In this document: piece by piece, positions 16,696 through 58,656 of the stretch | Layout of the letters: each line of letters starts with the position of its first letter | How positions within the stretch are numbered: position 1 is the stretch's first letter | DNA from: Halobaculum rubrum | Lineage (GTDB): Archaea; Halobacteriota; Halobacteria; Halobacteriales; Haloferacaceae | Length of the DNA: 64,000 bases | NCBI RefSeq assembly: GCF_019880225.1 | Contig: NZ_CP082284.1 | Span: 682,001 to 746,000, forward strand | Direction: 5' to 3' | Made by a program: the position numbers and the translations under genes | Notes under the pieces: generated by a model | What the model was told of the DNA's origin: nothing | Database searches by the model: none | The model's input: the letters and a program-made list of their open reading frames with translations, nothing else

Positions 16696-16789
16696 GAACG
16701 TCCGGACGGAGTCCACGCGAACGTAGTGAGCGTGGGCACGTCGGACGTGACTGAACGAACGAAGTGAGTGAAGGAACGTCCGGACGGAG
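16696..16789. repeat. direct repeat of the tRNA-Arg 3' end
   Basis: The 16-bp sequence GAACGTCCGGACGGAG occurs at 16696-16711 and again at 16774-16789, where it forms the 3' end of tRNA-Arg. The 62 bp between them contain CGAACGAAGTGAGTGAAG-type repeats. Such a partial tRNA end copy is what an integration/excision event at a tRNA attachment site leaves behind, although 16 bp is short. Confidence 0.55.
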
Positions 16790-32174: not shown

Positions 32175-32212
32175 ACCGGCGCTTGGATCGCGCGACACAA
32201 AGGCGTATTCGG

Positions 32213-32327
32213 TCGCGTCGCCGGATCATCCGTGGTTGCGTCGCCGGATCGTCCGTGGTTGCGTCACCGGATCGTCCGTGGTTGCGTCGCCGGATCGTCC
32301 GTGGTTGCGTCACCGGATCGTCCGTAG
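32213..32327. repeat. five-copy 23-bp tandem repeat
   Basis: Units of TTGCGTC(G/A)CCGGATCGTCCGTGG start at 32213, 32236, 32259, 32282 and 32305, and a sixth is cut after TTGCGTC. Units 2+3 and 4+5 alternate GCC/ACC, so the array probably grew by duplicating a 46-bp pair. It lies between the divergent flavoprotein and threonine-synthase-like genes. No part looks coding; the frames through it give Arg-rich repeats. Confidence 0.9.
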
Positions 32328-32412
32328 TTGCGTCTGCGCCCCGTCACCGATCGTACCCGGAGCCGGTCTCGAACCAGCACATCCATGCGGCGGCGGCCCC
32401 AATCGCGGACGA

Positions 32413-45245: not shown

Positions 45246-45449
45246 CCCCTTGACGGATCGAGTTGGGAAGAAACGAATGTCGTTCTCATTACGGAACGAT
45301 ACGGCCTGTTCCGTCCTTAGTCGTTACGACAGGCCGGACTCGGCGAACCGGACCGAGGCGGTCGCCCCCGGACCGCGGATGTCAGTGGTCCGTCGGTCGA
45401 GACCGCCGCGTCGCGAACCGCTAAGTGCACCCGTCGCCCACGTCCGGGC

Positions 45450-46379
45450 GTGACCGATCAGCTGTATCTCGCGGACAGCACCGTCGGCGAGTTCGCGGCG
45501 ACCGTCGAGCGGTCGCTCGACGAGCGCGTCGTCCTCGACCGGACGCACTTCTACCCGACCGGCGGCGGCCAACCCAACGACACGGGAACGCTCCGGGTGG
45601 TCGACGCCGGCGGCGGTGCTGACGGCGCGGACGGGGACGGCGGCGACACCGATAGCGACGCCGGCGTCGACGCGGACGGTGACGACGCGGTCGGCACCGA
45701 GTTCGCCGTCACCGACGTGGAGAAGGCGGACACGGTGTACCATCACCTCGACGGCGCGGCGCCGCCCGCGGGCGCTCGCGTCCGTGGCGTCCTCGACTGG
45801 GATCGTCGACACGCCCACATGCGGTATCACACCGCCCAGCACCTCCTCTCGGCGGTCCTCCTCGACGAGTTCGACGCCCGGACGGTCGGGAACCAGCTGT
45901 ACGCCGACCGCGCGCGCCTCGACGCCGAGTACCCGAAGTTCTCCGAGGCCGACCTCGCCGACGTCGAGGCGCGCATGAACGCCCTCGTCGACGACGGGCT
46001 CCCCGTGCGCCACTACACGATGGACCGCGAGGTCGCCGAGGCGGAACTCGACGCCGAGCGCACGCGGATCGACCTGCTCCCGAGTTCGATCACGGAGCTT
46101 CGGATCGTGGAGGTCGGCGGGACGCGGAGCGGCCCGGGGAACGCGAGCGGGGAGGGGAGCGAGGCCGAACGAAGTGAGGCCTCGAAGCGAACGGGGAGTG
46201 AAGCGACCCGTGAACAGACCGACCCGCGAGCAGGCGACGCGGACGACCCGTTCGACCGCACCGCCTGCGCCGGCACCCACGTCGAGAACACCGACGCGAT
46301 CGGCGAGGTGACCGTCCAGGGCCGGACGACGCAGGGCGGCGAGACGGAGCGCGTCGAGTTCACCCTCGCGGACACCTGA
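45450..46379 (+). CDS. alanyl-tRNA editing protein AlaX
   Basis: 309-residue AlaX, a free-standing homologue of the AlaRS editing domain that clears Ser (or Gly) from mischarged tRNA-Ala. Zinc ligands are in MRYHTAQHLLSAVL (HxxxH) and in CAGTHVENTDAIG (CxxxH). A Gly-rich start RTHFYPTGGGQPNDTG matches the family. Two acidic or charged insertions are unusual: about residues 52-75, and about 232-254 (EGSEAERSEASKRTGSEATR), the latter encoded by a palindromic GAACGAAGTGAGG element. GTG start at 45450. The normal AlaX-M size is near 240, so the insertions account for the extra length. Confidence 0.9.
   Translation: MTDQLYLADSTVGEFAATVERSLDERVVLDRTHFYPTGGGQPNDTGTLRVVDAGGGADGADGDGGDTDSDAGVDADGDDAVGTEFAVTDVEKADTVYHHLDGAAPPAGARVRGVLDWDRRHAHMRYHTAQHLLSAVLLDEFDARTVGNQLYADRARLDAEYPKFSEADLADVEARMNALVDDGLPVRHYTMDREVAEAELDAERTRIDLLPSSITELRIVEVGGTRSGPGNASGEGSEAERSEASKRTGSEATREQTDPRAGDADDPFDRTACAGTHVENTDAIGEVTVQGRTTQGGETERVEFTLADT
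46151..46210. repeat. GAACGAAGTGAGG-type palindromic element inside alaX
   Basis: GAGGCC (46161-46166) pairs with GGCCTC (46178-46183) around GAACGAAGTGA, and the run continues TCGAAGCGAACGGGGAGTGAAG. The element is read in frame as a 20-residue Ser/Glu/Arg insertion between two conserved AlaX blocks. Similar sequence is found at 16716-16771 and 57050-57353. Confidence 0.6.
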
Positions 46380-54802: not shown

Positions 54803-54941
54803 GCTCCGACCGTGGGTCGCCGGCGGCAAGTAGCTTGCCACGCCGGCGGCCGCGCTTCCCGGTGCGGTCGTCGAAACGGACGACCGCCACCGAATCCGCT
54901 GGTTCCCGAACGGTCAAGTGCCCGTCACCACACCGGCGCGT

Positions 54942-57086
54942 ATGCAGCACGGACTCGATATCGAGTCGTACTACGACCTGCGACTGCTCGCGGAGGTAGC
55001 GGTATCCCCCGACGGCGAGCGCGTCGCGTTCACCGCACAGGAGTCCGATCCCGCTGCCGACGAACAGCGGACGGGGCTGTACGTCGCGCCGACGGACGGG
55101 AGCCGCGAACCGCACCGCCTCACCCGCGCGTCCACCGCGGCGTCGCCGACGTGGGGGCCCGACGGCCACACGCTCGCGTTTCTCGCCGCCCGCGATGCCG
55201 ACCTCGATCGCACGCGCGGGCGCGCCGACGAGGGCGACGACGAGACGGACGAGGCGAACGTCGACGAGGATGACGAGGACGAGGAGAACGGTACCGACGG
55301 CGAGAACGGCGACGAAAAGCCGAAACAGCAGGTGTGGGCGTTCGACCTCGCGCGCGGCGGCGACGCCCGCCAGCTGACCGCCTTCGAGCGGGGGGTCACG
55401 GAGTTCGATCTCGCGCCCGACGGCGACCGTCTCGTCGTCGCCGCCCGCGACCCGACCGACGAGGAGGAATCGTACCTCGACCAGCGCGAGGACGGCGGCC
55501 CCATCGAGGTGACCCGCCTCCAGCACAAGCGCGACGGCGCCGGCTGGCTCGACGACGTGACGACGTACCTGTTCGTCGGCGACCTCGACGGCGAGGCCGC
55601 CGACGCCGAGTCGTTCGACCGCCTCGACGACGCCTACGGCGCCGGCTCGGCCGAGCCGCTCGCCGGGCTCCAGCCCGCGTGGGGGCCGACCGACCGTATC
55701 GCCTTCACCACCTGCGTCGACGACGACCCCGACGACTCCGGCGCCTACGACGTGTGCACGGTCGCCCCCGACGGGTCGGACTGCCGGGTCGTCACCGACG
55801 GGAGCCTCCGGTGTGCTTCCCCGACGTGGTCCCCCGACGGCGACCGGATCGCGTTCGACGGCAGCAACTACGACAACTGGTACGAGCCCAACGAGGCGTA
55901 CGTCGCGCCAGACGAGGCCGACGCCGCGTTCGAGTCCGTCTCCGCCGAGTTGGACCGCACGCTCGCGCGCGACGGGGCGCCGCGCTGGCTGGACGGCGAA
56001 ACGGTCGTCGTGCCGATCGCCGACGAGGCGTGGACCCGGCTCGCGGTGTGTCCGGTCGACGGCGAGCCGCGGCGGGCGTTCACCCGCCAGGGCCGCGATC
56101 GGACGATCGCGGCGTTCGATCTCGCGGGCGACACGGTCGCGCTCGGCCTCACGGGCGCCGACCAGCCGCCGGACGTGTACGCGGTCCCCGGCGCCGAGTT
56201 GCGCGAGGACGACGCCGGCGGCCCGACGAGGCGCCTCTCGGCGCTCAACGACGACTGGCTCGACGAGCGCGCCGACGCGCTGCCCGACTGCGAGGTCGTC
56301 GCCTACGAGAACAGCGACGGGGAGGAGATCGAGGCGGTCGTCTACTACCCGAGCGACTTCGACGCCGACGCGGACGACCCGGCGCCCGCGATCTGCTCGA
56401 TCCACGGCGGGCCGATGAGCTACGACGCGCCCGCATACCGCTTCACGCTGAACTACTGGACGAGCAGGGGGTACGTCGTTGCGAAGCCCAACTACCGCGG
56501 GTCGACCTCCTACGGCCGCGCGTTCTCGGAGTCGCTGAAGGGGAGCCGCGGGGAGTTGGAGTCCGACGACGTGATCGCGGCGATGGAGCACCTCGTCGAC
56601 GAGGGGGTCGCCGACCCCGACCGCCTGTTCTGCACGGGCTTCAGCTACGGCGGGATCACGACCGCGCACGTCGTCACACGGACGGACATGTTCGCCGCCG
56701 CCGCGCCCGAACACGGCATCTACGACTTCTACAGCAACTTCGGGACCGACGACAACCACAACTGGCACCAGTGGGAGTTCGGGATGCCGTGGGAGAACGA
56801 GGCGCTGTACCGCGATATCTCCTCGATCACTCGCGTCGACGAGATCGACACGCCGCTGCTCGTTACCGCGGGCGAGGAGGACTGGCGGTGTCCGCCGACG
56901 CAGGCCGAACAGCTGTACGTCAGCGTCCGCAAGCGGGGCGTCGACGCGAAGCTCGTGATCTACCCGGACGAACACCACAACATCGGGACACCCGAGCGGG
57001 CGACGCATCGCATCGAGGAGTTGACGGAGTGGTTCGAGAGCCACGATCCGGGCGTGGACGAAGGAGCGAGCGAAGCGAGCGACTGA
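54942..57086 (+). CDS. S9-family prolyl oligopeptidase-like peptidase
   Basis: 714 residues. A seven-bladed beta-propeller (about 15-410) with repeated SPDG/GPDG/SPTWSPDGD motifs precedes an alpha/beta-hydrolase domain. The catalytic Ser is in TGFSYGGITTAHV, the Asp in GEEDWRCPPTQAE and the His in YPDEHHNIGTP. S9C-type acylaminoacyl-peptidases or oligopeptidases have this plan. Acidic insertions (about 90-130) are halophilic. The last 13 residues (DPGVDEGASEASD) are encoded by the beginning of the tandem repeat that starts at 57050, so the original C-terminus was probably extended or replaced. Confidence 0.9.
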   Translation: MQHGLDIESYYDLRLLAEVAVSPDGERVAFTAQESDPAADEQRTGLYVAPTDGSREPHRLTRASTAASPTWGPDGHTLAFLAARDADLDRTRGRADEGDDETDEANVDEDDEDEENGTDGENGDEKPKQQVWAFDLARGGDARQLTAFERGVTEFDLAPDGDRLVVAARDPTDEEESYLDQREDGGPIEVTRLQHKRDGAGWLDDVTTYLFVGDLDGEAADAESFDRLDDAYGAGSAEPLAGLQPAWGPTDRIAFTTCVDDDPDDSGAYDVCTVAPDGSDCRVVTDGSLRCASPTWSPDGDRIAFDGSNYDNWYEPNEAYVAPDEADAAFESVSAELDRTLARDGAPRWLDGETVVVPIADEAWTRLAVCPVDGEPRRAFTRQGRDRTIAAFDLAGDTVALGLTGADQPPDVYAVPGAELREDDAGGPTRRLSALNDDWLDERADALPDCEVVAYENSDGEEIEAVVYYPSDFDADADDPAPAICSIHGGPMSYDAPAYRFTLNYWTSRGYVVAKPNYRGSTSYGRAFSESLKGSRGELESDDVIAAMEHLVDEGVADPDRLFCTGFSYGGITTAHVVTRTDMFAAAAPEHGIYDFYSNFGTDDNHNWHQWEFGMPWENEALYRDISSITRVDEIDTPLLVTAGEEDWRCPPTQAEQLYVSVRKRGVDAKLVIYPDEHHNIGTPERATHRIEELTEWFESHDPGVDEGASEASD

Positions 57087-57353
57087 GGCCACGGTGGACG
57101 GCGGCGAGGTCTTCGTGCCGAGCCGCCCACGAAGGGCGTGGACGAAGGAGCGAGCGAAGCGAGCGACTGAGGCCGGTGGACGGCGGCGAGGTCTTCGTGC
57201 CGAGCCGCCCACGAAGGGCGTGGACGAAGGAGCGAGCGAAGCGAGCGACTGAGGCCACGGTGGACGGCGGCGAGGTCTTCGTGCCGAGCCGCCCACGAAG
57301 GGCGTGGACGAAGGAGCGAGCGAAGCGAGCGACTGAGGCCACGGTGGACGGCG
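57050..57353. repeat. 3.6-copy 84-bp tandem repeat
   Basis: Units start at 57050, 57134, 57216 and 57300 (lengths 84, 82, 84, then a partial of 54). Each begins GGGCGTGGACGAAGGAGC, contains GAGCGAAGCGAGCGACTGAGG and, except the last, ends GAGCCGCCCACGAA. Copy 2 lacks 2 bp. A decayed fifth copy (GGCGAGGTCTCCGTGCC, from about 57407) lies farther on. The first copy overlaps the 3' end of the S9 peptidase, the rest is non-coding. It belongs to the same GAGCGAAGCGAG family seen elsewhere. Confidence 0.95.
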
Positions 57354-57381
57354 TTCACAAATCGCGGCGCGATGTGTCCGC

Positions 57382-57404
57382 TCACGAGACCGCAGGTCTC
57401 GTGA
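57382..57404. terminator. hairpin between convergent S9 peptidase and MFS genes
   Basis: TCACGAGACC-GCA-GGTCTCGTGA, perfect 10-bp stem with a 3-nt loop, between convergent genes. A stem this stable could protect or terminate both transcripts. No U-run follows, so a terminator role is uncertain. Confidence 0.4.
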
Positions 57405-57483
57405 ACGGCGAGGTCTCCGTGCCGCCACGCCCGTATCACACACAAGGAAGGGACAACGACTCTCGCGGGATGTCCTGTCACGA

Positions 57484-58656
57484 TCACAGATCGAGCCCGA
57501 GCGCCCGGTTCGCGCCGAGCAGCGCGAGACACGTCGCCAGCAGCGCGACGACGAGACCGTAGGCCGCCGGCCATCCGGCCGCGCTCGCGACGGCGCCGGT
57601 GACGACCGACCCGGAGGCGGCGAGGAGCATGTACACGGTTCGCAGTAGACCGAAGGCGTATCCGCGCTCGGCGTCCGTCAGCCGGTCCATGAACCGCGCC
57701 TGGATCGGGCCGGGCCAGGAGATCCCGGCACCGAGCACCGCGACGCCGGCGACGGTGCCGACGACTCCGGGCGCGAGCACCAGCGTCGCGATGCCGGCGC
57801 TCGCGAGCGTGACGCTGATCGCGACGGCGGCGTCCCGGGAGAGCGCGTCCGACACCCGGCCGTTCACCGGCTGGGCGACCGCGCTGATCGCGAACACCGC
57901 CCCGAAGGCGGTCGCCGCCGTCGACGGCGCGAGGTCGCGGTGCGCGACGAGAAACGTCGGCAGGAACGACGAGACGGCCTGAAAGGTGAACCCGCACAGC
58001 ACGGCTATCGCGGTCGTGTACGCAAGCGGCGGACGGGCGAGCACGTCGGCGATCCGTCCCGGGTCGACGGCCGCCCGGAGGTCGCGATCGGGGTTGGCCG
58101 GCGCGAGCGACGGGACGAACAGCAGCGTCGCGACGGCCGCCGGGACCGCGACGCCGGCGCCCGCGCCGACGGCGACCTCCCAGCCGTACCGGTCTGCGAG
58201 CACGCCCCCGATCCCGGGGAACGCCGCGCCGGCGACGGCGCCCGCGCCCGTGAGCACGCTCAACGCGCCGCCGCGCTCGTCGTACAGTCGCGACAGCAGC
58301 GAGGTCCCGGGCGAGAAGAACAGCCCGGCGCCCGCGCCGAGCACCAGCGTCGCCGCCCCGAACGCGAACATCGACGACGACAGCGCCACCAACGCGGTCC
58401 CGACGCCGGCGCCGACGATCCCGGCGAGGACGACCGGTCGTTCGCCGAGGCGGTCGGCGAGCACGCCGCTGGGGAACTGCAACAGCGCGTACGTCGCCCA
58501 CATTCCGGTGAGCGCCAGCCCGACCGTCGCCTCGGTCGTCCCGAAATCGACGAGAACGAACGGGACGACCGCCCCGAGAAGCACCCGCGCACCCAGTTGA
58601 CTGAAGTTTCCTGCGCTTACCGCCGCGAGCGCGAGGCGGCGGCGACCGCCGCTCAT
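57484..58656 (-). CDS. major facilitator superfamily transporter
   Basis: 390 residues, about 12 transmembrane helices. The MFS loop 2-3 motif is FPSGVLADRLGERPVVLAGI and its second-half counterpart is FMDRLTDAERGYAFGLLRT. The start overlaps the thioesterase stop by an ATGA junction. Substrate unknown; the family spans drug and nutrient efflux. Coupling to a hotdog thioesterase suggests an aromatic or fatty acid-type substrate, which is inference. Confidence 0.88.
   Translation of the reverse strand: MSGGRRRLALAAVSAGNFSQLGARVLLGAVVPFVLVDFGTTEATVGLALTGMWATYALLQFPSGVLADRLGERPVVLAGIVGAGVGTALVALSSSMFAFGAATLVLGAGAGLFFSPGTSLLSRLYDERGGALSVLTGAGAVAGAAFPGIGGVLADRYGWEVAVGAGAGVAVPAAVATLLFVPSLAPANPDRDLRAAVDPGRIADVLARPPLAYTTAIAVLCGFTFQAVSSFLPTFLVAHRDLAPSTAATAFGAVFAISAVAQPVNGRVSDALSRDAAVAISVTLASAGIATLVLAPGVVGTVAGVAVLGAGISWPGPIQARFMDRLTDAERGYAFGLLRTVYMLLAASGSVVTGAVASAAGWPAAYGLVVALLATCLALLGANRALGLDL

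Follow-up and report, generated by a model that had tools for sequence, protein, structure and literature searches.

REP and BIME sequences of bacteria are short, imperfect hairpin repeats of high copy number, mostly extragenic, often arrayed and often located near the 3' ends of genes. Rickettsia palindromic elements (RPEs) are also dispersed hairpin elements, and some of them lie in frame within protein genes. The k-turn and K-loop RNA motifs, targets of L7Ae, are built around tandem sheared-type G.A pairs. REPs are further defined by a tag, GTAG or CGTC, at one end of the hairpin (PMC3733652). In DNA, the mini-hairpin GCGAAGC has a Tm of 78 C and resists nucleases, a loop of 3 nt of the form GNA being the optimum (PMC4686876). 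In the haloarchaeon Haloferax volcanii, hairpins are reported behind genes, upstream of termination sites, where they can terminate transcription, one of them having been active in vivo (PMC7237163).

The locus described here is an 84-bp tandem array overlapping the 3' end of an S9 peptidase gene. A tandem repeat at a gene's end is by itself an ordinary finding; what is out of the ordinary is the family from which it comes. A sequence-only reading of the locus had overlooked that the 84-bp unit is one member of a family with a defined structure and copies throughout the genome. We think it rather probable that the array grew by local tandem amplification from a single resident copy of a REP-like hairpin element dispersed in haloarchaea, a subset of whose copies act as mRNA 3'-end hairpins.

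The array behind the peptidase gene

The window, the whole stretch of 64,000 nt that was analysed, is part of the 3.06-Mb genome of a Halobaculum-like haloarchaeon (G000:C1:682001-746000). Tandem Repeats Finder places the array at 57050-57353 with a period of 84, 98% matches and a score of 594, by a wide margin the strongest in the window. The region is laid out as follows.

54918..57086, plus strand: S9 prolyl-oligopeptidase-family peptidase gene (Pfam PF00326, residues 507-708), its 3' end overlapping copy 1
57050..57133, plus strand: copy 1, 84 bp; encodes the peptidase's final 11 residues and stop codon, the remainder non-coding
57134..57215, plus strand: copy 2, 82 bp; a 2-bp deletion, the AC of GGCCACGG being missing
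57216..57299, plus strand: copy 3, 84 bp
57300..57353, plus strand: copy 4, first part, 54 bp
57354..57407, plus strand: nested two-hairpin element inside copy 4, 54 bp, TTCACAAATCGCG...GGTCTCGTGAACG
57408..57432, plus strand: remainder of copy 4, a diverged hairpin II (aligned by eye)
57484-58584, minus strand: convergent MFS transporter gene, the array lying between it and the peptidase gene

The three full copies and the 54-bp partial one are as the sequence-only reading had counted them, while the decayed fifth copy that it saw beyond them is the remainder of copy 4, split off by the nested element. The latter sits in hairpin II, after ACGGCG, and hairpin II picks up again at 57408 as GCGAGGTCTCCGTGCC; five further loci in the 2.06 Mb of this genome that were surveyed are interrupted alike. 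The array is not due to chance, because its copies are near-identical and the same sequence recurs across the genome, where the 84-mer has 55 matches at E<=1, many of them within other small arrays. The motif GAGCGAAGCGAG, present in all array copies, had been said to occur in other places as well, and it does so, once more in the window and at 43 occurrences genome-wide. A second strong tandem array in the window (32211-32334; 23-bp unit GGTTGCGTCGCCGGATCGTCCGT, 5.4 copies, 94% matches) bears by eye no likeness to the hairpin element. The idea that the array marks a synteny breakpoint was dropped, as genome G109 shares both neighbours.

The peptidase takes its final 11 residues (GVDEGASEASD), rather than 13 as had been claimed, and its stop codon at 57084-57086 from copy 1. 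This element-derived C-terminus is not part of the S9 domain, whose last residue is 708. Among named relatives, the peptidases of Halobaculum gomorrense (88%) and of H. saliterrae (90%) come closest. At the peptidase locus a congener, G088, has a single copy, and G109 and G063 each have one copy into whose loop further hairpins are nested, the G063 sequence matching the H. gomorrense locus. Arrays arose independently in the present genome and in H. saliterrae, and at the Haloparvum locus nothing recognisable of the element was found. The near-identity of the copies, together with relatives having a single copy (G088) or a differently lettered array (H. saliterrae), bears out the earlier claim of recent expansion. 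Homologues with the same C-terminus and no repeat had been named as what would refute the rewriting, and the single-copy G088 has a tail of the same kind (EGANGVSD*); the peptidase tail is therefore older than the tandem expansion. It stems from an older resident element, the expansion coming later, downstream of the stop. That a repeat has rewritten a coding end would accordingly be right of the element itself, from which the C-terminus derives, and wrong of its tandem expansion.

A hairpin built of G.A steps and a GNA triloop

The 84-bp unit contains two hairpins, here given for copy 1.

57053..57093, plus strand: hairpin I, CGTGGAC-GA-AG-GA-GC-GA-GC-[GAA]-GC-GA-GC-GA-CT-GA-GGCCACG
57100..57127, plus strand: hairpin II, GGCGGC-GA-GG-(TCTTCGTG)-CC-GA-GCCGCC

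In hairpin I three G.A tandems are interspersed with 2-bp steps; it has a GAA triloop and one A.G mismatch in its outer stem. All pairs of hairpin II are Watson-Crick in G088 and in H. saliterrae. Dispersed elements share this plan, hairpin I being often followed by a second hairpin, either hairpin II or another. The grammar of hairpin I comprises a Watson-Crick stem, one to several modules, each made of a 5'-GA-3'/5'-GA-3' tandem and 2 bp, and a GNA triloop closed by C-G, GAGCGAAGCGAG being one instance of it. The letters of the stem vary by compensatory changes, and the G.A steps and the loop are constant. Since the complementary strand would have T.C steps, the fold is possible on one strand only.

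RNA folding recovered the predicted stem, GA-step and triloop in all eight units taken from different loci; the z-scores range from -0.75 to -5.9, so that energy alone is a weak argument for some units. In seven aligned copies 97.8% of the pair cells form and both sides change in 12 of the 13 pairs, a level of pairing reached by none of 500 shuffles; controls with slid partners are 23-40% paired. Columns without variation are chiefly those of the G.A steps, the triloop and the pair that closes it.

A non-circular test started from every GANCGNAGNGA core in the 2.06 Mb, pairing not being required for selection. Five flanking base pairs form at 66 of 234 such sites against 2.9 expected, and controls given different flanks or loops remain close to the expected number, with the exception of GANCGNCGNGA (12 against 3.0). 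Among the 66 there are 23 different 5-bp stems, and the inner pair, which played no part in the selection, is Watson-Crick in 65 (GC 30, AT 22, CG 13). Strict hairpins number 46, compared with 0-2 for each control grammar. The triloop is near-exclusive, with loops of 3 nt in 51 hairpins against 2, 3 and 0 for loops of 2, 4 and 5 nt, and C-G closes it in 46 of the 51; loops of 4 nt, GNRA included, showed no enrichment. Of the 256 possible 2x2 steps, GA/GA (TC/TC on the other strand) dominates hairpins with 6-bp stems. These tests of complementarity were used because reversed-pattern controls are invalid here: that for GANNGAANNGA (585 against 109) was discarded as evidence, codon usage alone raising GA..GAA, and that for GAGCGAAGCGAG is meaningless, the motif being identical when read backwards.

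Dispersal, placement and distribution

The hairpin census covered 2.06 of the 3.06 Mb, with gene calls from a simple predictor written for the analysis. It gives 90 hairpins at 52 loci, mostly intergenic. Twenty loci have two or more hairpins, in a single orientation in every one of the 20, and successive hairpins are often about 60-77 bp apart. Stem letters differ between loci and are mostly the same inside one array. A larger array of the family (G000:C1:1995022-1995504) has seven hairpins on one strand with a spacing of 77 bp. A pair of hairpins also occurs elsewhere in the window.

16711..16783, plus strand: two GA-hairpins, one a long rod, TCGGACGT-GA-CT-GA-AC-GA-AC-[GAA]-GT-GA-GT-GA-AG-GA-ACGTCCGG

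This pair lies in a divergent intergenic region beside an apparent tRNA gene. The rod has three G.A modules, and a related one is found in G109 at C1:2750141.

Thirteen of the 52 loci begin 0-6 nt past a co-oriented stop codon, where the null mean is 1.0 and no locus does so in antisense; TAA, TAG and TGA are followed alike. Overall, the orientation of loci relative to the upstream gene is balanced (21:22, by hand tally), and an RNA role therefore cannot explain most copies. Some copies lie in divergent promoter regions and some are antisense to both neighbours. A GAA-loop hairpin stands directly behind the stop codon of the thermosome gene both here (C1:839618) and in the G109 orthologue, with different sequences: it is of the GA-step type in the present genome and a plain 8-bp GAA-loop stem in G109. 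This pair of sequences hints that a hairpin behind the thermosome gene matters.

Hairpins within predicted genes are in sense orientation in nine of nine cases, at least three of which are probably overextensions of gene calls at their starts. One is a clear in-frame insertion.

45447-46379, plus strand: AlaX-like alanyl-tRNA-editing gene, containing the element insert
46116..46232, plus strand: in-frame element insertion in alaX, 117 bp or 39 codons, with two GA-hairpins

The uninserted alaX of G109 reads straight through, and tblastn alignments of most of the relatives listed are interrupted at residues 224-241 and continue from 251-268. One insertion has possible GGCG/GACGCGGA flanking repeats, the sole case and an ambiguous one of target-site duplication. 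With the alaX insert, nature provides a test of how much is tolerated near the CxxxH region.

Between congeneric species the element varies in position and copy number, and at all four loci whose flanks can be aligned to G109 it is absent there. When 197 genomes of the phylum were sampled, 14 had a stem-constrained pattern, every one of them from the window's own order, with one match for the reversed control; in most of 116 Halobacteria genomes a looser core is commoner than its reversed control. The same covariation is seen at 149 listed sites in five other genomes (four genera, three families), where the inner pair is Watson-Crick in 116 against 49 when shuffled and the outer pair in 126 against 77. 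No plasmid matched the element, and a pattern scan of viral contigs gave unspecific hits among the matches listed. Rfam returned nothing above the gathering score, its three chance-level matches lying outside the array. Searches of the open-access literature for repeats between haloarchaeal genes, for REPs and for palindromic elements turned up no account of this element, and a search for the exact motif there returned unrelated papers only.

Origin, function and relation to known elements

The element would spread by a single-stranded, hairpin-recognising process, either REP/IS200-like or replicative. Tandem growth could follow by slippage or unequal recombination among near-identical units. 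Copies just behind stop codons may be retained because the GA-hairpin would serve as an mRNA 3'-end structure, in termination or in protection from decay, and copies overlapping the end of a gene, or in frame within it, would give the protein a hydrophilic tail or insert. The search for a mobilising enzyme was negative: a REP-associated Y1/tyrosine transposase (RAYT), typical of GTAG families, was not found in this genome, nor was an autonomous transposon partner such as a MITE would have. The one Y1 transposase that was found is that of the following element.

C1:2591899-2592243: single IS605-type TnpA/TnpB element, end hairpins CCCACCCGTTTACGGGTGGG and CCCACGGCTTTAGCCGTGGG

Its TnpA was rejected as mobiliser, as these terminal hairpins are unlike the repeat and the hairpins of the element do not match the ends of the resident element.

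A simple local satellite, grown by slippage and having neither structure nor family, would account for copies that are near-identical and in register and for the separate array of H. saliterrae in the same place. It is refuted by the dispersed copies, the compensatory stems and the class-wide enrichment, and is scarcely credible. An assembly artefact, with repeats collapsed or expanded, is hardly more plausible: tandem repeats are error-prone and copy 2 of the H. saliterrae array has ambiguous bases, but the copies studied here can be told apart by the 2-bp deletion and the nested element, and comparable arrays are present elsewhere in this genome and in further species; the copy number given is that of the assembly. 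The hairpins might instead be ordinary intrinsic 3'-end or terminator structures that arose convergently behind genes and form no repeat family. The 13 loci immediately behind stop codons, the H. volcanii precedent and the differing post-stop hairpin of the G109 thermosome gene all point that way; near-identical multi-hairpin units at unrelated loci and in arrays do not, roughly half of the intergenic loci are antisense or divergent, and generic post-stop hairpins have no preference for GNA (16 GNA against 15 TNC). We consider such convergence improbable.

The strongest rival holds that the element is purely one of DNA, a single-stranded hairpin combining the d(C-GNA-G) mini-hairpin with sheared G.A tandems, recognised in replication, recombination or transposition and having no RNA function. 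Its C-G-closed triloops match the stable, nuclease-resistant GCGAAGC hairpin (PMC4686876), the want of enrichment for 4-nt loops such as GNRA agrees with it, and so do the copies in divergent promoter regions or antisense to both neighbours. The strand used by the hairpins also switches near orc1/cdc6 genes in the sampled part of the chromosome (Fisher p 0.011; one-break permutation p 0.02), but the boundary was chosen post hoc and the G109 hit list shows no clear repeat of it; this suggestive replication-strand bias is not used as support. In the same genome, pattern matches and orc1-like genes recur with a constant spacing of 36,470 bp (C1:286952-292732 and 323422-329202), which suggests a long duplicated segment. 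What a DNA-only element would not lead one to expect is the sense placement 0-6 nt past stops, 13 against 0 in antisense, and on balance we find it unlikely, if a serious contender. The closed GNA loop favours DNA and the stop-codon placement favours RNA; by analogy with the DNA mini-hairpin, whose optimum it is, a 3-nt GNA loop would fit a pure mRNA role awkwardly. Both roles may hold, as has been proposed for REPs (PMC3733652).

The reading we prefer, a dispersed element amplified locally, can be carried further. Tentatively, and with somewhat less than even confidence, Halobacteria may be suggested to carry a class-wide, undescribed, strand-specific family of elements built of four-base modules (two Watson-Crick pairs and a G.A tandem) and GNA triloops, with a dedicated process of spreading and use as mRNA 3' ends behind stops. 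Stretches of GAGCGAAGCGAG in haloarchaeal intergenic regions and protein tails, seemingly low-complexity noise, prove here to form the tip of a hairpin that covaries and keeps to a strict, unusual, non-canonical grammar. They offer a testable handle on the spread of short repeats in archaea that have no visible transposase, on haloarchaeal mRNA 3' ends, and on how proteins acquire in-frame inserts or, like the S9 peptidase, variable C-terminal tails. Annotators should be warned that variable tails may be element-derived.

Compared with known systems, the element resembles k-turns and K-loops in its tandem sheared-type G.A pairs but has symmetric 2x2 steps every four bases; identity with a k-turn was rejected, there being no 3-nt bulge beside the G.A pairs. 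Like the 3'-end hairpins of H. volcanii it occurs behind genes in a haloarchaeon, a likeness of position, and unlike them many of its copies are not in a 3' sense position. Its tip, GC-GAA-GC or more generally NC-GNA-GN', is exactly the motif of the d(GCGAAGC)-type mini-hairpins, which are known as oligonucleotides or local motifs, whereas here the tip caps a rod of G.A tandems genome-wide. With RPEs it shares dispersal as hairpins, some in frame in protein genes (here the 39 codons in alaX), but it differs in sequence, structure and host domain, and its in-gene cases are a minority. Of REPs it has the palindromic stem-loop of 20-40 bp, the high copy number and the mainly intergenic location, and like REPs and BIMEs it is often arrayed and often near gene 3' ends. 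By eye, no GTAG or CGTC tag is common to the 5' flanks of its stop-adjacent hairpins. It differs from REPs and BIMEs in its host, a haloarchaeon, and in having stem letters that vary by locus around fixed G.A steps and a fixed GNA loop.
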